Below the pieces are notes generated by a model, which had not been told where the DNA came from, ran no database searches, and saw nothing but the letters and a program-made list of their open reading frames with translations. Source: a virus. From it: 26,569 nt of DNA. Of this stretch, positions 5,373 through 21,405 are shown piece by piece; position 1 is the first letter of the stretch; each line of letters opens with the position of its first letter. A program made the translations under genes and the position numbers. The stretch covers positions 1-26,569 of the IMG/VR virus record IMGVR_UViG_3300025099_000112, one strand, 5' to 3'.

Positions 5373-5390
5373 AATATATAATTTACACAA
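5373..5390 (-). promoter_or_regulatory. Possible promoter of the connector operon
   Basis: The 13 bases 5373..5385 (aatatataattta on the plus strand) are identical to the start-proximal part of the two near-identical promoter elements at 6943..6980 and 19986..20023, and TTTG follows on the minus-strand side at 5387..5390. The element lies between an intrinsic terminator (5395..5427) and the first gene of the connector operon, exactly where a promoter would be needed. The upstream half of the longer element is missing, so this is a weaker case than the other two. Confidence 0.4.
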
Positions 5391-5394
5391 AGAT

Positions 5395-5427
5395 AAAAAA
5401 AAAGGGTAACACTTAAATGCTACCCTT
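5395..5427 (-). terminator. Intrinsic terminator after the PD-(D/E)XK gene
   Basis: On the minus strand aagggta (5427..5421) pairs with taccctt (5408..5402), extended by gca/tgt with one wobble, giving a 10-bp stem and a 6-base loop, followed by a T-run complementary to the A tract at 5395..5403. It would stop transcription leaving the accessory block. Confidence 0.85.
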
Positions 5428-5452
5428 AATTAACCAAACTCACCTAAACAAT

Positions 5453-5848
5453 TTATGTAGGGGATTGAGAATCCCTCTTGAATACAAAGTTATTAAAATT
5501 TTTGGAATATTTACCCACAAGTGATAACCTAACCGATTGCATATTTCCATTGTTTTTAAATATAAAAAACCCCTCAAGATGATAAACATAAACGGCAAAG
5601 TAATCCACATCGCTTTTAGTATAAACCCTTTTTGAATTTTGAAGTGGCACTTGTATTGTTGTAATGGTGTCTTTTATGGGTAATTTTATGGTTGATTTGA
5701 TTTGTATTTTATATAAGTTTTTGCCATTATCAACTACGCAATCATAAATTGATGCATCCGATAAGGGCATTGAAACATTATATCCCCTTTTAATGCATTC
5801 GGTTGCGAAAAGGTATTCACTAAAACACCCCCTTTGATTATTATTCAA
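5453..5848 (-). CDS. PD-(D/E)XK endonuclease (PDDEXK_5-like)
   Basis: 131 residues. The first 55 match the PDDEXK_5 family (PF11645, group I intron-associated nuclease type): GCFSEYLFATECIKRGYNVS with Glu11, PLSDASIYDCVVD with Asp36, and YKIQIKST with Gln49 and Lys51, the form in which Q-x-K replaces E-x-K. The only usable start is TTG at 5848: an in-frame TAA lies just upstream and the next Met would remove the essential Glu11. A nearby ATG (5853) opens only a two-codon frame overlapping the TTG. The gene stands alone between two terminators inside the structural region, away from the replication genes. It may cut DNA as a homing-type or host-directed nuclease; the target cannot be told from sequence. 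Confidence 0.82.
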   Translation of the reverse strand: MNNNQRGCFSEYLFATECIKRGYNVSMPLSDASIYDCVVDNGKNLYKIQIKSTIKLPIKDTITTIQVPLQNSKRVYTKSDVDYFAVYVYHLEGFFIFKNNGNMQSVRLSLVGKYSKNFNNFVFKRDSQSPT

Positions 5849-5872
5849 TTCATTGGTTTAATGTAAAGGTAT

Positions 5873-5906
5873 AAAAAAATGCCCACCAAGTGAATGGCGG
5901 ACATTT
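5873..5906 (-). terminator. Intrinsic terminator in the accessory block
   Basis: The minus strand has an 11-bp stem (5906..5896 with 5887..5877; two wobble pairs) around an 8-base loop, followed directly by a T-run (complement of A 5873..5879). It closes the unit transcribed from the promoter at 6943..6980 and leaves the endonuclease gene downstream without an obvious promoter of its own. Confidence 0.82.
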
Positions 5907-5931
5907 CCCAACAATTATCAAACAAAAAAAA

Positions 5932-6015
5932 CTATCTTAATTTCTTTACTAATTTATTAAATTTTTTAATATTAACAATATTTTGATTTATGTTTATCTG
6001 CCGATGGATATGCAT
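5932..6015 (-). CDS. Possible 27-residue basic micro-ORF
   Basis: In the gap after the membrane protein gene, an ATG at 6015 preceded by a purine-rich AAAAAGGAT opens a frame MHIHRQININQNIVNIKKFN then KLVKKLR and TAG at 5934..5932, 26 bases before the terminator stem. The ATG lies inside a perfect 14-bp palindrome (ggatatgcatatcc, 6006..6019). The region is very AT-rich and short frames with many Lys, Asn and Ile arise by chance, so this is only a candidate. Otherwise the gap contains nothing but the palindrome and terminator. Confidence 0.3.
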   Translation of the reverse strand: MHIHRQININQNIVNIKKFNKLVKKLR

Positions 6016-6029
6016 ATCCTTTTTTTTGC

Positions 6030-6290
6030 TTAGGAAGTTATCTTTTTGAGCCATATTATTATATCAATTAAAAATATTTCAATGTGAAAGTTATTCCACC
6101 ATTCGATAATTGTTTCAAGATGTAAAAGAAAATTTGAACATAACCAAACCGATATAAAAACCGCCGACAATAATATTGCAAACGATTTCGCCGCCTCAAT
6201 TATGTTCTTGCGATTTTCCTCGTTGGTAATTCTTTTTACCATTATATATTCTGGTGTATCTTGTATTCTATATTCATTTTGATTTTTCAT
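6030..6290 (-). CDS. Small two-segment membrane protein of the accessory block
   Basis: 86 residues. A charged N-terminal cytosolic-looking part (MKNQNEYRIQDTPEYIMVKR, NEENRKNIIEAAK) precedes a hydrophobic segment from about residue 35 to 57 (FAILLSAVFISVWLCSNFLL) and a second one near 71 to 81 (IEIFLIDIIIWL), ending KKITS. No family recognised. It is the third gene of the unit driven by the promoter at 6943..6980. A phage membrane protein expressed from an early-type promoter outside the lysis block could act in superinfection exclusion or host membrane modification; this is inference. Confidence 0.65.
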   Translation of the reverse strand: MKNQNEYRIQDTPEYIMVKRITNEENRKNIIEAAKSFAILLSAVFISVWLCSNFLLHLETIIEWWNNFHIEIFLIDIIIWLKKITS

Positions 6291-6308
6291 AATTTAATTT
6301 TTGGTTAT

Positions 6309-6331
6309 AAAAAGGGGGTGTTGCCACCCCC
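6309..6331 (-). terminator. GCAA-tetraloop hairpin with T-run (copy 1), likely terminator
   Basis: On the minus strand gggggtg (6331..6325), loop gcaa, caccccc (6320..6314), then TTTTT. It lies 8 bases after the stop of the 81-residue gene. The stem-loop recurs at 6601..6618 and 19716..19733 with compensating base changes in the stem and the same GCAA loop and upstream CAACC/ACAAC context; only this copy has a T-run. Confidence 0.75.
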
Positions 6332-6339
6332 GGTTGTTT

Positions 6340-6585
6340 TTACTTTTCTTTTTTCCAAACTCTTATGTGAGATTGTTCTTGATATTCATTCCAAAACATT
6401 TTTTTAACTCTTGTTAAGTGTCCGTTTAATAAACACTCTGTTTTGCCATCTATTAACATTTCGTAATTCCAATCAATAATTTCGTTGTACTTATTTGTAG
6501 GTTTTGTGATAATATCTTTACCGGTCAATTTTACAAGTTCTCCTTTTAAACCTGAATAAGTTTCTGTTAATACTACTTTTCTCAT
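6340..6585 (-). CDS. Unknown 81-residue protein of the accessory block
   Basis: 81 residues starting MRKVVLTETYSGLKGELVKL. The beginning looks like a small beta-barrel (strands around VVLTETYSGLKGELVKLTG and a later YEMLIDGKTECLLNGHL), followed by a basic and aromatic end (RVKKMFWNEYQEQSH, WKKEK). No family recognised and no catalytic motif visible. The gene is second in the unit after promoter 6943..6980, and its start lies 15 bases after a GCAA hairpin. Hairpins on both sides of it suggest separate RNA processing or tuned expression. Confidence 0.68.
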   Translation of the reverse strand: MRKVVLTETYSGLKGELVKLTGKDIITKPTNKYNEIIDWNYEMLIDGKTECLLNGHLTRVKKMFWNEYQEQSHIRVWKKEK

Positions 6586-6600
6586 AATCTTGTTTTTAAT

Positions 6601-6618
6601 GGGGGCGTTGCCGCCCCC
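6601..6618 (-). promoter_or_regulatory. GCAA-tetraloop RNA hairpin (copy 2), no T-run
   Basis: Minus strand: gggggcg, loop gcaa, cgccccc, then ATTAAAAACAAG, so it is not a normal terminator. It sits 8 bases after the stop of the 95-residue gene and about 15 bases before the start of the 81-residue gene, the same spacing to the next start as copy 3 at 19716..19733. Possible roles are protection of the upstream 3' end, a processing site, or control of the next start codon. Confidence 0.65.
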
Positions 6619-6626
6619 TGTTGTTT

Positions 6627-6914
6627 TTATTTTATTATATCGCTGTTGTTATGTGCGTCAATTATTTCTTTTTTCATAAACTTTCCTGTAGTTTGAAATA
6701 TTTCTTCAACATCATTTCCCCAATGGTCTTTAACAATTTTGTATCCTATTAACTTCATTTCATTAATATGTGTTCCAACAAATTGTCCTATTTGAAACCA
6801 GAAATCTTTTGGTGATAATCTATCGGTTAGTAGAATTTGGTTTGGGTTTTGTCTTGACTTAACTGACCAAATGTAATATTTGTGTGGGTTTTTAAGTGTG
6901 TAATTAGTTTCCAT
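6627..6914 (-). CDS. Unknown 95-residue protein, first gene of the accessory block
   Basis: 95 residues, start METNYTLKNPHKYYIWSVKS, with several aromatic residues and a mixed alpha/beta look (DRLSPKDFWFQIGQFVGTHI, KLIGYKIVKDHWGNDVEEIF). No family, signal peptide or membrane segment is recognised. It is the first gene after the promoter element 6943..6980, which is almost identical to the one driving the replication operon, so early and strong expression is likely. A role against host functions is conceivable but unsupported by motifs. Confidence 0.68.
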   Translation of the reverse strand: METNYTLKNPHKYYIWSVKSRQNPNQILLTDRLSPKDFWFQIGQFVGTHINEMKLIGYKIVKDHWGNDVEEIFQTTGKFMKKEIIDAHNNSDIIK

Positions 6915-6942
6915 TGTGTTATTGTTTTATGTTTATGATGTA

Positions 6943-6980
6943 AATATATAATTTATTTTAGAATATAAAAAATATTTTAC
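6943..6980 (-). promoter_or_regulatory. Promoter element of the accessory block (copy A)
   Basis: The 38 bases 6943..6980 match 19986..20023 at 35 positions: 18 identical bases, 6 variable (3 shared), then 14 identical. On the minus strand the start-proximal side contains TATATTTA, close to the Bacteroidota -7 box TAnnTTTG. Both copies begin about 30 bases upstream of a start codon and follow an intrinsic terminator. Confidence 0.72.
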
Positions 6981-6998
6981 ATTTATTTTCTTAAACCC

Positions 6999-7027
6999 AA
7001 AAAGGGCAGTCGATATGACCACCCTTT
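6999..7027 (-). terminator. Intrinsic terminator after the major capsid gene
   Basis: On the minus strand aaagggtggtc (7027..7017) pairs with gactgcccttt (7011..7001) around a 5-base loop, with two wobble pairs, followed by TTTTT. It lies 24 bases after the capsid stop and separates head transcription from the accessory promoter. Confidence 0.83.
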
Positions 7028-7050
7028 CAAGTTCAAAATTAATCGTTAGA

Positions 7051-9828: not shown

Positions 9829-12129
9829 TTAGTCGTTTTCAGAAATACGCTTTGCCCAAGATACCATCGCCGCACCGCCCCAAAGGTTATAAGCCACATA
9901 TCCACGGTCTTTCCACGGCTCATCTTTATATTGTGGGTCAATCTTTGCGTTGTCTTTGTGTCTTGCTAAAAAGGAGTTGACACGCCTTACGGTGTCCAAT
10001 GATAATGCCTCACGACTTGCAAGTTGATTGGCTCTCTCCCAACCGACTCTTGTTCCGCCTTTTACAACATCCCGACCATATTTCTCACGCCATTCCAACA
10101 TTCGCTTGGCGTTGTTGGTTGCGCCTTGCGGGTAGTCAGAATAAGTTTCTGCCTTTTGGCTTTTTTTGTCTGATGACAATGGGTGTTCCTCCGGTAACAA
10201 ATCGGTGTCGTATGCCCTTCTTTTGAATTTACCAGTTCTTAGTGCATAAAGTAACCCGTTAACCCTACCTAATGCCCATTGATCTTCGCTCGATACATTT
10301 GGTCTTACGGATGATGGGTTTGTGCGATATGCGCCGATCCCCCTTACAAATGACCTTGCCAACATTGAATAAGTTGCTCTTTTTGCCGGGTTGTCACCAT
10401 ATTCCTCATTATGGTCTTTTACTTTATTACGCAACGCCGTTTCCATCGCCCCACGGATTTGTGGTGCTTTTTGGATAATTTCTTCTTCGTTGATTGTATC
10501 GGTATCTTCATCATCATCATATCGACTATCAAGTTCGAAATTGTATTCAAAAGAATCGGCATCCATTTCGCCGTAAAATTCATCAAGGCGATTGTCTTTT
10601 GCCGCCTCATATTCCTCGTGGGTTTCAAATGGCATATATATAGTATAACCATCATAAATATGGGAATGATAACCATCCCCACCCATTTCTCTTGCTCTAC
10701 TTTGTGCCTCACTTATTGTTGTAAATACATCATTCATCCCCGGCACTTGTCTTTTCTCTGCCGGTTCAATTTCTATTGGTTCGGGTGTCATATCGGGCAT
10801 ATCTGAATCACCAAGTGGCAAAAGATTAGCCGGGATATAATATTCATCCATTCTTTCGTTCTCCTCATCCTTACCGTAAGACATTGCCGCACGTTTCTCG
10901 TTTGGTGTAAGCCACCACGCTTGGGACATCTGAGCGACAACCTTGTCGGTTTCCTCTTGCAGTTCCGGGATGGTAGTATAATCAAAATCAATAAACACCT
11001 TTTCGCCATACTTGGGTGCTAACCAACGATTCAGTTCATCCCTTATTTTCATAAGTTCGGGGATCACCGCATTGGTGTATAGCATTTTTCGTGCCTCTTT
11101 TATATTGTTGTACGTTGCCGATTCAACATTGTTAAGCAGCACCGCCGGGACATTGTAAACGTTGCAAAGGTCTTTGATGGTGCCATTGTATTGTTCGATA
11201 AGGGAAAGGTCGGCGGCATTCAGTCCAAAATTAACCCACGACAATTTTTTAGGGGTAATGATAACATCCCCGGCATTGCCTGAACCTTGGTATTGTTGTC
11301 TGAATTTTTCCTTGAGTTGTTTGGCTTGTACTTCATTCAAATCCCCTTCCTCGGACATTAAAACACCCCTTGCCGTTTGGTTTTGTAAATATTTGACCCC
11401 GGTGGTAAGTGCCTCATTGTTGGCATCCATTGAACGGAGTCCGGCTCGTAGTGGTGACATACCATAAAGGTTTTGCCCTGACCCATCGAAATAAGGATTG
11501 AAATCTTTGATATGACAAACATCATCGGCATCGATTTGAAACGTTCCATTATATTCCAAGGTATAATGGTCAACCGGTTTCATAAAGCCACCGGAATGGA
11601 TTTCCATCGCTTGACTTGGTAGAACATAAAGTTCGCCATACTTGGATTGGTTTGCACCCCTCTCCGGTGTGATTCCGTAGATGTAACGGTTTCCGGTTAG
11701 CTTACCAAACGCAATTACCTCACTTAAAAATGATGCGTAAGATTGTGCCGGGTTTGGTCGGTTCAATAGTTCGTGGATTTCAGTTCCCTCTAATTCGACC
11801 ATTGAATTTTTTAAAATAACTTGTGCCTTATGGGTTGCATTGGCATCGAATCCGTTTGATGTTAGTGCCTTATATCTTTTTAGTGAGTTTTCACTTTTGA
11901 CCTCATAAACTTGGAACGGAACCGTTGACGCAGCCTTTGTTATAAGATTGACAATCGAATAAACGGTCGAGTTGAAACGATACCCTTTATTAATATACGA
12001 ATCATCATTCTCTGCGCTTGTAATGATTGTATCGCCTAAAAAGTTGTAAATCGCCCGATTAAATTGTGAACTTGTGGCTTGACTGTTTTTAGTCATTAGC
12101 CTTTTGAAATTATCGAATATTGATGCCAT
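9829..12129 (-). CDS. Portal protein with a long multi-domain C-terminal extension
   Basis: 766 residues, against about 400 to 450 for ordinary HK97-type portals (PF04860). Residues 1 to about 440 are portal: STVYSIVNLITKAASTVPFQ, HELLNRPNPAQSY, GNRYIYGI, HIKDFNPYFDGSGQNLYGMS, and NVYNVPAVLLNNVESATYNN. Beyond it are three unrelated-looking parts: 463 to 511 (TTISEAQSRAREMGGDGYHS, YMPFETHEEY), an acidic linker (DDDEDTDTINEEE, 538 to 550), 556 to 652 (YSMLARSFVRGIGAYRTNPS, WALGRVNGLLYALRTGKFKR, DTDLLPEEHPLSS) and 665 to 760 (NNAKRMLEWREKYG, GTRVGWERANQLA, GYVAYNLWGGAAMVSWAKRI). I have seen similar segments attached to phage head proteins, but their function is unknown to me. The single frame is uninterrupted. 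Confidence 0.92.
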   Translation of the reverse strand: MASIFDNFKRLMTKNSQATSSQFNRAIYNFLGDTIITSAENDDSYINKGYRFNSTVYSIVNLITKAASTVPFQVYEVKSENSLKRYKALTSNGFDANATHKAQVILKNSMVELEGTEIHELLNRPNPAQSYASFLSEVIAFGKLTGNRYIYGITPERGANQSKYGELYVLPSQAMEIHSGGFMKPVDHYTLEYNGTFQIDADDVCHIKDFNPYFDGSGQNLYGMSPLRAGLRSMDANNEALTTGVKYLQNQTARGVLMSEEGDLNEVQAKQLKEKFRQQYQGSGNAGDVIITPKKLSWVNFGLNAADLSLIEQYNGTIKDLCNVYNVPAVLLNNVESATYNNIKEARKMLYTNAVIPELMKIRDELNRWLAPKYGEKVFIDFDYTTIPELQEETDKVVAQMSQAWWLTPNEKRAAMSYGKDEENERMDEYYIPANLLPLGDSDMPDMTPEPIEIEPAEKRQVPGMNDVFTTISEAQSRAREMGGDGYHSHIYDGYTIYMPFETHEEYEAAKDNRLDEFYGEMDADSFEYNFELDSRYDDDEDTDTINEEEIIQKAPQIRGAMETALRNKVKDHNEEYGDNPAKRATYSMLARSFVRGIGAYRTNPSSVRPNVSSEDQWALGRVNGLLYALRTGKFKRRAYDTDLLPEEHPLSSDKKSQKAETYSDYPQGATNNAKRMLEWREKYGRDVVKGGTRVGWERANQLASREALSLDTVRRVNSFLARHKDNAKIDPQYKDEPWKDRGYVAYNLWGGAAMVSWAKRISEND

Positions 12130-17098: not shown

Positions 17099-17184
17099 TT
17101 GCTAAACATTATAATTAAAACCGTAATGCTCATAATTAAAGCATATATTCCACTAATATATTCAAATGTTTCCAAAATACTCAT
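17095..17184 (-). CDS. 29-residue single-TM micro-protein
   Basis: Translated by eye: MSILETFEYISGIYALIMSI then TVLIIMFSK. The start (17184) lies inside the last codons of the DnaA/VRR-NUC gene in another frame, and the stop overlaps the next ATG as ATGA (17098..17095). Residues 10 to 27 form one hydrophobic helix, with an acidic N-terminus and a lysine at the end. It exactly fills the gap between two replication genes and is too short for usual gene callers. Its role is unknown; membrane tethering of replication or simple translational coupling are possible. Confidence 0.55.
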   Translation of the reverse strand: MSILETFEYISGIYALIMSITVLIIMFSK

Positions 17185-17812
17185 CAATTAATTGTTTACA
17201 ATCATCAAAGTCATAAGAAACAGATGTTTTCCAATTCTTGTTTTTAAGCGTTTTAAGGCACTTTTCTTGGTTTTCGGTAGGTTTATTAGGTTTAATCTTT
17301 AATTCGATTGCTAAGCCGTTAAAATCGCCCTTAGAATCAAAACAAAGAACATCCGGGACACCGGCAACCCCTCCGAGTTTTTTAAACTTAAATCTTTCAA
17401 ATGGTGTTCGTTTGCCCTCATTTGGACAATGGATCACAAATGCATCCGGATATTGCATCTTAAAATACTGCATTACGGCGTTTTGGAATTGATCCTCTTT
17501 GGTGAGATACTTGTTAAAATTATTAGGCATAATATTTTTTTCTATTGATTCAAAATTTTCTTTAAGAAAGGGGTCTTGATTGTACTGAAAAATGTTCTCA
17601 ATTGTTTTGATGCCGTGCATCACGGTTGCGTGATTTACTTTTACTTTTTCGCCAATAGCACTATATGAGATAGGGCGAACGTGATCCCTTGATAATTTAT
17701 AATAAATTGACCGGGCATCAATGAATTTTCTCAATCTTGTTTTTCTTCCGATGTCAAATCCAAAATAGTAATCGACTTCTTTTTTAATAAATTCGGTTGT
17801 AAGTGTTTCCAT
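17162..17812 (-). CDS. Fusion of DnaA domain IV-like HTH with a VRR-NUC nuclease
   Basis: 216 residues in one frame. Residues about 25 to 73 resemble the C-terminal DNA-binding domain of DnaA: RKFIDARSIYYKLSRDHV, YSAIGEKV, and VNHATVMHGIKTIEN, the last close to the DnaA signature D-H-T-T-V-x-H. Residues about 103 to 200 form a VRR-NUC domain (PF08774): KEDQFQNAVMQYFK, GVPDVLCF with Asp154, and GLAIELKIKPNKPTENQ with Glu170, Lys172 and Gln182. The catalytic residues look complete. There is no AAA+ domain. The protein may bring a structure-specific nuclease to DnaA-box-like sites. In other phages I would expect the two domains as separate proteins. Confidence 0.87.
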   Translation of the reverse strand: METLTTEFIKKEVDYYFGFDIGRKTRLRKFIDARSIYYKLSRDHVRPISYSAIGEKVKVNHATVMHGIKTIENIFQYNQDPFLKENFESIEKNIMPNNFNKYLTKEDQFQNAVMQYFKMQYPDAFVIHCPNEGKRTPFERFKFKKLGGVAGVPDVLCFDSKGDFNGLAIELKIKPNKPTENQEKCLKTLKNKNWKTSVSYDFDDCKQLIDEYFGNI

Positions 17813-17813
17813 A

Positions 17814-18581
17814 CTATAAAATTAATGAACCATCCTTTGCCATTTCACTTGTTTCGTATCCATAAGCAATTCCGGTTTTTAAATAATGATTCCATTGTTC
17901 TAAAGCGTTTTGATATGCCAATCTACCCTTTTCGATCATATCATCGCTTAATCCATAAACAACCACCGAAAATGGATGCTTGGTTTCTATTGCTATAAAA
18001 CGAAATCGCTTTGGGTCAAATCCTAATGCATCAGAATAAAATGCCGCTTGTAGGTGATAGCCATAGTTGTAAACATCCCTTAAAAACGCCCTTGGCGAAT
18101 TATCCTGACAAGTTTTGATGTCACTAATCCAACCATTACCTTTGACATCCGGTCGAACACGAACCGGTACTTTGTTATGAATACCATAGTGTGATAACTC
18201 AACATCACCCTTTGTGTAAAATATTGCCAAATCATTTTGCATAAATTGGCGTTTAATATTTAAGATAATATTCCCCGGTTGTTCCTTGTCATTACTGATG
18301 TATAAAAGTTCCTTCCCCTTGTGATCTTCTTGTTGCTCTTTTCTTTTTTTCATATACCCTTCCCCCCTTGGTATATAATCAACAATCGCATATTTCTTGT
18401 CAAATTCCTTTGGCTCAAGTATCGCCTCGTGTACTGCCGTACCAAGTGCCAATGAATCACTTGAAAAAGGTCTTTGATTTAGAAAATGATAAACCGATTT
18501 CTTGTGAATCGTTTTCAATCCGGATGCGGAGATTTCCGGTCTGGAATGATAGTTTTCATTTGAGTCCTTTTGTGTTTTCAT
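17814..18581 (-). CDS. RecE/Cas4-like PD-(D/E)XK exonuclease
   Basis: 255 residues. Motifs in order: ALGTAVHEAILEP with His51, VPVRVRPDVKGNGWISDIKT with Asp145 and Asp154-Ile-Lys156, and YGYHLQAAFYSDAL (173 to 186). This is the pattern of the PDDEXK family PF12684 and RecE-type 5'-3' exonucleases. It would resect double-strand ends to give single strands for the ERF annealing protein two genes upstream. The set exonuclease, SSB-like and ERF forms a phage recombination module. The gene lies one base upstream of the DnaA/VRR-NUC gene. Confidence 0.88.
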   Translation of the reverse strand: MKTQKDSNENYHSRPEISASGLKTIHKKSVYHFLNQRPFSSDSLALGTAVHEAILEPKEFDKKYAIVDYIPRGEGYMKKRKEQQEDHKGKELLYISNDKEQPGNIILNIKRQFMQNDLAIFYTKGDVELSHYGIHNKVPVRVRPDVKGNGWISDIKTCQDNSPRAFLRDVYNYGYHLQAAFYSDALGFDPKRFRFIAIETKHPFSVVVYGLSDDMIEKGRLAYQNALEQWNHYLKTGIAYGYETSEMAKDGSLIL

Positions 18582-19089: not shown

Positions 19090-19512
19090 TTAAAAAATAT
19101 TAGTGTTAGAATTAAAATTTGATTTTGGTGTTTGGGGTTTTCTGTTTGATGCGGAGTTGGCATCATCATCTACTGATTGCAACGCCAATAATGATGCTAA
19201 AGTATAACGCCTGAAATATGTTATTTCTGAGCCTTTCTTTTGGGCATCTAATCCTTGGGATAGTGGAATGGCTGAAACCTCCTCCTCGCCGGTTTCCGTG
19301 CATCTAAGAACGGTTTGAACCTCATTCTCAATAATGGGTTGTAATATGACAACCTTATTCTTTTGGAGTATCGGCAAAGTGTGTTCCAACAATTGATTGA
19401 TGTCAAAATACTTTGATTTGAAAAAAGGATTGTTTGCGCCCTTTGTTATTTTACCAATTTCCTTTTGAATTTGGAATAGTTTGGTTGAAATGGATTTGTT
19501 TTCACTTATCAT
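19090..19512 (-). CDS. erf: ERF-family single-strand annealing protein
   Basis: 140 residues. The family core (PF04404) is clear: FFKSKYFDINQLLEHTLPIL, then GSEITYFRRYTLASLLAL (94 to 111) and VDDDANSAS, with the closing DDD typical of ERF. The protein anneals complementary strands in recombination-dependent replication and circularisation. The Ser/Asn/Pro-rich tail (residues 118 to 140) is a flexible end as in other ERFs. It overlaps the small HTH gene by 4 bases (ATGA) and is followed by the SSB-like gene after 2 bases. Confidence 0.9.
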   Translation of the reverse strand: MISENKSISTKLFQIQKEIGKITKGANNPFFKSKYFDINQLLEHTLPILQKNKVVILQPIIENEVQTVLRCTETGEEEVSAIPLSQGLDAQKKGSEITYFRRYTLASLLALQSVDDDANSASNRKPQTPKSNFNSNTNIF

Positions 19513-19700
19513 AAGTTTAGCGGTTTTAGATTAATGTTTAATTTTTTGAGTTTGTTTAGGTCATCAACGGTAAACCTTCCCGGTTCTTTTATCTTAGAAT
19601 TTAGCGTTGGCAATGTAATATCAAGACATTCTAAAACATCCAATTTGCGAATATGCAAACGCTTTATTTCATTGATAAAATGGATTTCAAATTCGTTCAT
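19509..19700 (-). CDS. Small HTH-like protein
   Basis: 63 residues, MNEFEIHFINEIKRLHIRKL and then ECLDITLPTLNSKIKEPGRF, FTVDDLNKLKKLNINL. The pattern helix, turn, helix (residues about 17 to 35), then a basic turn and a third helix fits a small Cro/XRE-type DNA-binding fold, and the E-P-G-R-F-T-x-x-D-L-x-K-L piece is typical of such HTH proteins. It is the second early gene and could regulate the early promoters at 19986..20023 and 6943..6980. Its start follows a GCAA hairpin by 15 bases. Confidence 0.7.
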   Translation of the reverse strand: MNEFEIHFINEIKRLHIRKLDVLECLDITLPTLNSKIKEPGRFTVDDLNKLKKLNINLKPLNL

Positions 19701-19715
19701 ATAGAATATTTAAAT

Positions 19716-19733
19716 GGGGGCATTGCTGCCCCC
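19716..19733 (-). promoter_or_regulatory. GCAA-tetraloop RNA hairpin (copy 3), no T-run
   Basis: Minus strand: gggggca (19733..19727), loop gcaa, tgccccc (19722..19716), then ATTTAAATATTC. The stem differs from the copies at 6309..6331 and 6601..6618 by paired changes. It lies 8 bases after the first early gene and about 15 bases before the next start, matching copy 2. Confidence 0.65.
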
Positions 19734-19741
19734 GGTTGGTT

Positions 19742-19954
19742 TTAGATTTGTTCAGGTTCTGTACTGTCTTTTATATCACGAAAAGACCTATAATCATCAC
19801 CGTGTATTCCGGTTCCATAAAGAGCAATACCGTTGACAATATTGTCACTATAAACACCATCAAAAAATGCTTGTAATTGATTTTTGATTTCGTCTCTTTC
19901 AATACCTTTAGAGATTTCAAATTTTGCGATTAATTCTTTAATTGAGATTACCAT
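19742..19954 (-). CDS. Unknown first early protein, 70 residues
   Basis: 70 residues, MVISIKELIAKFEISKGIER and then DEIKNQLQAFFDGVYSDNIV, ending in an acidic, polar tail (FRDIKDSTEPEQI). Helical first half, no membrane segment, no motif recognised. It is the first gene behind the early promoter 19986..20023, so it is likely made soon after infection. Its counterpart behind the other copy of the promoter (6627..6914) shows no obvious similarity. Confidence 0.66.
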   Translation of the reverse strand: MVISIKELIAKFEISKGIERDEIKNQLQAFFDGVYSDNIVNGIALYGTGIHGDDYRSFRDIKDSTEPEQI

Positions 19955-19985: not shown

Positions 19986-20023
19986 AATATATAATTTATT
20001 TTACAAACTAAAAAATATTTTAC
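19986..20023 (-). promoter_or_regulatory. Early promoter element of the replication operon (copy B)
   Basis: Nearly identical (35 of 38 bases) to 6943..6980. It lies 32 bases upstream of the first early start codon and 11 bases after the terminator of the tail operon. On the minus strand it reads as two AT-rich blocks separated by a variable 6-base spacer, with TATATATT at the start-proximal end as a plausible -7 region. Confidence 0.72.
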
Positions 20024-20033
20024 TAAATAATTT

Positions 20034-20070
20034 AAAAAACCCCCCACGATTCAAGAGAACCAATAGGGGG
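20034..20070 (-). terminator. Intrinsic terminator of the tail operon
   Basis: Minus strand: ccccc (20070..20066) pairs with ggggg (20045..20041), and an inner ggttc/gaatc stem closes a 4-base loop; GTTTTTT follows (complement of A 20034..20039). It lies 21 bases after the stop of the last tail gene. Confidence 0.82.
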
Positions 20071-20091: not shown

Positions 20092-21405
20092 TTATTCGAA
20101 TTTAATCTGAAAATCGGTATTTACATCATCATCCTGATTTGGTATGTGGCTAACAATTTTGTATTCATTTTTTTTAACCGAGTAGGACATACTATCTATT
20201 ATAGATGAAACTGGTTCTTGGTTTGTTCTGAAATTCACCCACAATTTATTATGTAGTGAAATCGGAATCGGTTCGGGATTTGTGTTGAAAAACGTTCCTT
20301 CAAACCTTTTAATGTATTCACGATAGTCATTAATCATTTCTTGCGTAATTAATTGGTCAATAGGTTTCGCCGTATTAGGATTTAATCTATTTACAAAATC
20401 GCCCAAAATACGACCATCGTGTTTTGAATTTTTTAGTGCGTTTGACAATATATTATCTTTTGATTGGTAAAAGTTCGAAATCACACTTGTAGTCCTTGAC
20501 TTGTTTTCCATTATCGCCGTTGACCTTGTTTGAACTGCCTCGGATATTTTAACGTTGTCGACATATAGTCGATTAAAATCGGCAGTAGTGCCAGTGACTA
20601 TTGGTTGTCCTAATCTAAAATCAACATATAATTTATCAGTATATTGCCCAATGGTTGTTGCATCAACTTCCCCGGCTTTGTAAGGCGGTACATCAATAGT
20701 GAATTTCTGCCATTGATTGTTAGAAATTACGCTTGTGTAATTCCTTTCGGGATATGAATTATTAATATAGGTATTTTCAACAAATTCGTTTGATTGTGCA
20801 TTATACTCAACATCATATCCAGTACCTGAATAAAAGAAACGATATGTTAATTCAAATCTAAATTCAATTTCAACATCATCTGAATCAGTATCGGCAAAAT
20901 ATTCAAATTCAAGTTTAACGGGCATTTTTTGATTTACTTGGGGCAATGCGATAATTTGTGATTCAAGAAATATACCGGACACCAAAGTTGTTCCAATTAA
21001 TCCAAGGTTTCCTGTTCTTGATGAATTGGTTGTTGTAGTTTCAAGATATACGTTTTTACTTAAAGGGAAAGTTTTCGGATTACTTCCTGATGTTGGTGAT
21101 ACAAAATTACAAGTACCTATATCCCACTTATATGATGCCGTTGTTGTAGAATACATAAAATGACTGTTCGGATGAACATCTTCAAGTTGATCAACCTTTG
21201 TAATATATTCCGCCTTTTTTATAGGCGGCAAATATTCAACGGTCATATCATTATTAATTGGTATTACAACATCAGGTGCGGTCAGAAGGACATTTTCAAC
21301 TAATGTTTCTTTATAAACACCATCCTTGTCATACCTTTTGAATTTAATAAATTCCTGATTGGTATTTTGTAATAAATCTAATTGTGCGTTTCTAATCGTT
21401 CCCAT
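20092..21405 (-). CDS. Distal tail protein, flavobacterial phage type
   Basis: 437 residues, MGTIRNAQLDLLQNTNQEFI. The middle has a beta-rich segment of carbohydrate-binding-module appearance (KLEFEYFADTDSDDVEIEFR, WQKFTIDVPPYKAGEVDATT, DKLYVDFRLGQPIV, FNRLYVDNVKISE, about 180 to 290). The C-terminal part (LHNKLWVNFRTNQEPVSSII, DSMSYSVKKNEYKIVSHIPN, about 380 to 425) matches my memory of the last tail gene of flavobacterial siphoviruses. It shares its first base with the stop of the preceding tail gene. A tail tip or receptor-binding role is likely but not proven. Confidence 0.78.
   Translation of the reverse strand: MGTIRNAQLDLLQNTNQEFIKFKRYDKDGVYKETLVENVLLTAPDVVIPINNDMTVEYLPPIKKAEYITKVDQLEDVHPNSHFMYSTTTASYKWDIGTCNFVSPTSGSNPKTFPLSKNVYLETTTTNSSRTGNLGLIGTTLVSGIFLESQIIALPQVNQKMPVKLEFEYFADTDSDDVEIEFRFELTYRFFYSGTGYDVEYNAQSNEFVENTYINNSYPERNYTSVISNNQWQKFTIDVPPYKAGEVDATTIGQYTDKLYVDFRLGQPIVTGTTADFNRLYVDNVKISEAVQTRSTAIMENKSRTTSVISNFYQSKDNILSNALKNSKHDGRILGDFVNRLNPNTAKPIDQLITQEMINDYREYIKRFEGTFFNTNPEPIPISLHNKLWVNFRTNQEPVSSIIDSMSYSVKKNEYKIVSHIPNQDDDVNTDFQIKFE

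Follow-up and report, generated by a model that had tools for sequence, protein, structure and literature searches.

Lambdoid morons are additional genes within a structural operon that bring a promoter and a terminator of their own, and integron cassettes form arrays of genes and structured hairpins behind one promoter, in which new combinations arise. Promoter early stem-loops (PeSLs) of T4-type phages were reportedly described by Arbiol in 2010 and by Comeau in 2014. In T4-type phages, a terminator-promoter composite and stem-loops flank small early genes, which are intensely shuffled between related phages (PMC4503421, PMC3950731). PeSL-like motifs, consisting of a TATA-like motif and an inverted repeat, were also described before many ORFs of the archaeal virus HGTV-1 and were proposed to regulate and shuffle them (PMC3950731). 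The locus studied here shares with the T4 PeSLs a terminator-promoter composite, stem-loops and small genes that differ among close relatives. In HGTV-1, the motifs precede the majority of the ORFs on one side of the genome (PMC3950731), whereas in the phage studied here they were found at two slots only.

The analysed stretch of DNA (the window) comprised positions 1–26,569 of the IMG/VR virus record IMGVR_UViG_3300025099_000112. This 26.6-kb phage has almost all of its genes on the minus strand and an HK97-type capsid (Phage_capsid PF05065), and it is not a T4-like myovirus. Its TerL was closest to those of Bacteroides phages (37–38% identity), and the capsid proteins of cultured phages were at most about 30% identical to that of the window. 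No relative of the capsid protein was found in the 84,980 bacterial and archaeal genomes searched; therefore, neither a host nor a prophage was identified, and the host phylum was assigned from the promoter type, considered below, and the TerL kinship, which together point to Bacteroidota. For comparison, 80 relatives were fetched via the capsid protein. About 65 had an intact slot (defined below), namely 21 close relatives, in which the capsid was at least 90% identical, and 44 more distant loci. All of the compared sequences were metagenomic contigs, among which single chimeras are possible; the swaps described below recurred in independent samples.

Along the direction of transcription, the capsid gene is followed by a terminator, a promoter, p95, a hairpin, p81, a hairpin, p86, a micro-ORF, a terminator, a nuclease gene and a terminator. 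The features of this block were as follows:

6997–7031, minus strand: terminator 3' of the capsid gene that forms the left border of the head slot (fold -18.3 kcal/mol, z -4.4)
6943–6980, minus strand: head-slot promoter, a copy of the early promoter (35/38 identical to 19986–20023)
6627–6914, minus strand: p95, cargo gene 1, 95 aa
6601–6618, minus strand: GNRA (GCAA) hairpin after p95 (fold -17.4 kcal/mol, z -5.2)
6340–6585, minus strand: p81, cargo gene 2, 81 aa, absent or replaced in relatives
6314–6331, minus strand: GNRA (GCAA) hairpin after p81 (fold -16.7 kcal/mol, z -2.9)
6030–6290, minus strand: p86, small membrane protein of 86 aa, fixed right neighbour of the head slot, with one strong hydrophobic stretch at about residues 30–62
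5932–6054, minus strand: conserved micro-ORF of 40 aa, overlapping the end of p86
5876–5907, minus strand: internal terminator at the border of the small genes and the nuclease (fold -18.9 kcal/mol, z -5.4)
5453–5848, minus strand: PD-(D/E)XK nuclease, 131 aa, core gene of the phage group (PDDEXK_5 PF11645, E 4.6e-16)
5402–5427, minus strand: terminator that closes the block on the right (fold -14.4 kcal/mol, z -5.2)
5388–5395, minus strand: TATCTTTG, read from the sequence as a candidate -7 box before the next structural gene or unit (motif from PMC6847099)

The initial annotation had described a terminator-bounded block between the capsid and connector genes, containing a promoter nearly identical to the early promoter, two GCAA hairpins like that of the early operon, genes for small proteins of 95, 81 and 86 residues, the last being a membrane protein, and a PD-(D/E)XK gene. 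All of these elements were found at their places, and both bounding terminators folded well; the terminator at 5876–5907 is a third one, which had been missed. A block was present in all 59 relatives that spanned this place and therefore is not an intrusion peculiar to the window phage.

A second slot lies at the start of the early operon, between a tail gene (20092–21405) and the gene at 19509–19700, and its content varies as that of the head slot does. In the window, it contains the following elements:

19986–20023, minus strand: early-slot promoter, pairing with 6943–6980
19742–19954, minus strand: e70, early-slot cargo, with a homologue (43%) in the L061 head slot and replaced or absent in other phages
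19716–19733, minus strand: early-slot GNRA hairpin with the early-type A-U closing pair (fold -15.8 kcal/mol, z -3.6)

The resemblance of the block to the head of the early operon, which the annotation had pointed out, was thus borne out: the early slot is of the same build, and genes that open the early operon in some phages were found in the head slot of others, and the reverse. By comparison of the loci, the head slot was shown to extend from the terminator-promoter behind the capsid gene to the hairpin before p86.

The two promoters were 92% identical over 38 nt and represented the best 38-mer pair of the window; in 40 dinucleotide shuffles, the best pair reached at most 31/38, versus 35/38 in the real sequence. 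At both slots, the early-type promoter directly follows a terminator (6997–7031 and one ending near 20040). There were only two copies of this promoter in the genome, rather than one before each small gene or group of genes as in the T4 PeSLs. The likeness between the promoters of the two slots was strong or clear in the clade of the window and in G009 and G010, was present in G016, G020 and G021, and was weak or absent elsewhere, being absent in G017 and G024. The -7 region of the promoter repeat reads TATATTTA in the window and TATATTTG in relatives, which fits the TAnnTTTG type and not sigma-70. TAnnTTTG is the -7 promoter type of Bacteroidota (PMC6847099). Sites matching the sigma-70 consensus were no more common than in shuffled sequences, and therefore this consensus is the wrong model here. 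In close relatives, the head-slot promoter was kept while the gene behind it changed. The leaders of head slots were nearly identical before different genes, as in ...AAAAACAAGATT|ATG, which was found before four unrelated ORFs, and they carried adenine at position -3. Adenine at this position favours initiation in Flavobacterium (PMC6847099).

The initial annotation had proposed that the content of the locus swaps while the flanking genes stay. This was found to hold for p95 and p81, with 13 different gene orders in the 21 close loci (and 34 in the 44 more distant ones), whereas p86, the micro-ORF and the nuclease were constant. The same four genes were thus not conserved in all relatives, p95 and p81 being replaced. 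Cargo genes combined freely; the combinations observed were p95 with p81, p95 with a 61-aa gene, an 85-aa gene with p81, p81 alone and the 85-aa gene alone. The clearest single swap was found in L004, in which the capsid and p95 were identical to those of the window and a 61-residue gene, with a hairpin on each side, stood in place of p81. In the 197 pairs of loci that differ in their first cargo gene, the median identity was.92 at the 3' end of the capsid gene,.89 in the terminator-promoter and.85 in the 20-base leader, fell to the random level in the cargo (.54, versus.53 after shuffling), and returned to.88 in p86 and.91 beyond. At the level of these comparisons, it was shown that ORFs are exchanged almost exactly from start codon to stop codon, while the promoter, the start context and, in the window clade, the hairpin type mostly stay. 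Considering the sequences compared, p95 and p81 are the only genes of the block that behave as swappable cargo. The pN/pS ratio was.13–.24 for p95 (0.13), p81 (0.18) and three other cargo families and.83 for a 49-residue family, so that selection, as judged from these ratios, acts on the cargo as protein, the 49-residue family being the exception. The head slot is probably an exchange slot for early accessory genes that are swapped by short-homology recombination, and the T4 PeSLs are the closest described system.

Cargo was traded between the slots. The protein encoded by p95 was 100% identical in the early slot of G006, where 387 nt were shared at 94.8%. In this case, p95 had carried its own 5' leader along into the other slot, and therefore the start codon does not always mark the left joint. 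The gene p81 was also found in the early slots of L194 and L195. In total, seven cargo families occurred in both slots, namely p95, p81, the e70 family and f45, f51, f91 and f114, which are families of 45, 51, 91 and 114 residues, respectively.

The same cargo was found in a second lineage, at a slot on the side of terL. Behind terL in L168, L171 and L172, p95 was present at 94–100% identity; the TerL proteins of these phages were 31–34% identical to that of the window, and no capsid relative was found in them. Relatives of p81 (75–83% identical) occupied the terL-side slots of L185–L190. The order in these slots is promoter, cargo, hairpin and a protein of the p86 family, and the cargo changes. 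Thus, sequence comparison showed that the two slots and a second lineage, whose terminase differs, have cargo families in common. Genes of the lysis region were common to G027, a member of the terL-side lineage, and the window (up to 87% identity), and therefore the terL-side phages are mosaic relatives rather than strangers. The 136-aa protein encoded at 1916–2326 of the window has an 87% identical counterpart in G027, a phage with unrelated terminase and head genes; this protein and its neighbours belong to the lysis region, which the lineages share. In addition, the portal protein of the window (9829–12129) has a C-terminal extension; portal residues 658–759 are matched at 42% by a free-standing protein in the terL-side lineage.

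Small uncharacterised genes with a promoter and a terminator inside a structural operon also fit the picture of ordinary morons, i.e., occasional illegitimate insertions that bring their own promoter and terminator and whose location reflects chance and selection against insertion elsewhere. However, in most cases only the ORF changes and the promoter, leader and hairpin remain in place, the same families fill two defined slots, and the hairpins are confined to these slots. Moreover, the promoter did not come and go with the gene, as it would in a moron; in the empty early slot of L133 and the empty terL-side slots of L206 and L207, it was kept without cargo and without hairpin. In contrast to lambdoid morons, the signals are part of the slot and persist beyond its cargo, and an origin of the block from morons is unlikely. 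Only these three slots were counted as empty; L200 and L201, which had been considered as such, both hold cargo. In L200 and L201, about 130 bases before the p86-like gene, the GNRA hairpin is replaced by a longer element that is perhaps branched and has GGGGGTAC/GTACCCC as its closing sequences.

The hairpins start a few bases 3' of the stop codon. The motif GGGGGnnGCAAnnCCCCC occurred only three times in the genome, at the two head-slot hairpins and behind the first early gene, and the reversed-pattern control gave 0 sites. In a scan of nine genomes, all GC-rich GNRA hairpins lay within the two slot blocks; one copy in G011 resembled the terminator before the nuclease. As a description of copies that are in part related and hence not independent, the GNRA loop was present in 27 of 29 distinct hairpin copies, the other two having its exact inversion, and in the window clade the A-U closing pair was found in 7/7 early-slot and 0/17 head-slot copies. 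The hairpin structure was kept while its sequence varied; because the search had required a paired stem, this is no independent proof of covariation. A search of Rfam at the hairpins revealed no known RNA family. The hairpin pattern had 8 scattered matches in the 84,980 bacterial and archaeal genomes, mostly outside Bacteroidota, and these were taken as chance; the viral matches L153 and L155 were unrelated contigs without a slot. With the stem unchanged, loops of either orientation occurred (GCAA/TTGC and TCAT/ATGA), as if the palindrome had been flipped, in the head slots of L005, L009, L010 and L014 and also behind the 49-aa gene (L005, L018 and L023 versus L019).

The closing pair follows the slot, and the supposition that each gene brings its hairpin along was therefore rejected. 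This bears on an integron-like or other site-specific system, in which the hairpins would be recombination sites folded from single strands and some recombinase would insert units of a gene and a hairpin. Arrays of one gene and one hairpin behind one promoter in changing combinations, a layout shared with integron cassettes, the empty slots without a hairpin, the structure conserved despite variable sequence and the inverted loops would all agree with such a system. However, attC travels with its cassette, whereas here the hairpin type follows the slot and not the gene in families found in both slots. The joints vary, with no sign of a fixed crossover point, and no integrase or transposase, including a tyrosine integrase, was detected in Pfam searches covering most of the window proteins. 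Site-specific insertion is therefore regarded as highly improbable.

The neighbours on the right of the head slot were stable. Both p86 (pN/pS 0.17) and the micro-ORF were present in all 21 close relatives, and the p86 family also adjoins the slot of the terL-side lineage; its alignment was too diverse for a pattern search. The micro-ORF, which the initial annotation had mentioned as a possibility, is a real coding gene, judging from its pN/pS of 0.18 over 10 distinct sequences. It starts inside the last codons of p86 (6030–6054), and this overlap is kept in relatives, which suggests that translation of the two genes is coupled. The nuclease was found at the same place in 59/59 relatives spanning the region and is located behind its own terminator; therefore, it is a core gene and not cargo. 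Thus, the four genes do not form one accessory cassette, and the nuclease, p86 and the micro-ORF are, in the sequences compared, stable neighbours of the slot. The initial annotation had described a real and unusual layout and guessed the swapping rightly but had drawn the borders too wide.

The structural model of the nuclease (pLDDT 88) was closest to I-Ssp6803I (PDB 2ost, E 6e-8) and then to archaeal Holliday-junction resolvases, and it shares the fold and the D...QxK active-site pattern with I-Ssp6803I but does not lie in an intron; residues E11, D36, Q49 and K51 were invariant in 35 sequences. An active homing nuclease that cuts rival phages near the slot, followed by repair that copies the flanking cargo, might account for the hypervariability, and the closeness of the fold to a homing endonuclease, the invariant residues and the adjacency to the slot in all relatives agree with this. 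However, a homing gene would be expected to be patchy, whereas this nuclease is fixed in the whole group. In addition, swapping is as free at the early and terL-side slots, and beside the latter no relative of the nuclease was found. Homing is thus a quite improbable cause of the exchange.

With regard to short-homology exchange, the early operon of the window encodes two candidate agents:

19090–19512, minus strand: ERF single-strand annealing protein, candidate swap agent (PF04404, 2.8e-20)
17814–18581, minus strand: PDDEXK exonuclease-like protein (DUF3799), candidate partner of ERF (PF12684, 1.2e-19)

These two proteins would be enough for single-strand annealing. Exchange may occur by homologous or single-strand-annealing recombination during co-infection between two anchors, the promoter and leader before the ORF and the GNRA hairpin behind it, and the presence of the ERF annealase and the exonuclease suggests that the phage's own enzymes probably perform it. 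Positions 17162–17812 encode a protein in which a DnaA C-terminal domain (E 1.1e-8) is joined to a nuclease domain resembling VRR-NUC (E 3.4e-4, which does not reach the curated cut-off).

Judging from the likeness of the promoters, the cargo would be transcribed early from the slot promoter, and the terminator in front would shield it from late read-through. Because the hairpin lies only a few bases behind the stop codon, its most likely role is to protect the short cargo mRNAs or to separate them. The cargo might encode accessory functions that are directed early against the host or against rivals. Among 51 cargo proteins searched, none matched a family of known function; therefore, a role in counter-defence is a guess, as are the roles in host takeover or superinfection exclusion that the initial annotation had inferred. 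No match to p95, p81 or p86 was found among cultured phages, and the structural model of p81 was of low confidence (pLDDT 62).

Compared with the T4 PeSLs, the slots have one promoter each, followed by cargo that is divided by GNRA hairpins without promoters of their own. There are two defined gene-trading slots, one of them inside the head genes; the phages are small, of Bacteroidota type and with TAnnTTTG promoters, and the exchange includes a lineage whose head genes are unrelated. The system is a variant of T4-type promoter/stem-loop shuffling. In the literature searched, no described counterpart of two trading slots with a GNRA hairpin was found.

Phages gain and lose small genes fast, and how the arrivals come to be correctly expressed is seldom visible. 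The slot supplies the promoter, the start context and the transcript end, and therefore a bare ORF would be usable at once. A broader and rather doubtful extension is that marine Bacteroidota phages, including lineages with unrelated heads, share a pool of bare early ORFs that move between standardised slots, that the GNRA hairpin both matures the mRNA and serves as a joint, and that this pool is largely devoted to counter-defence. The slots provide a simple rule to collect dozens of uncharacterised early-type phage proteins, and their cargo may be a good hunting ground for anti-defence and host-takeover proteins.
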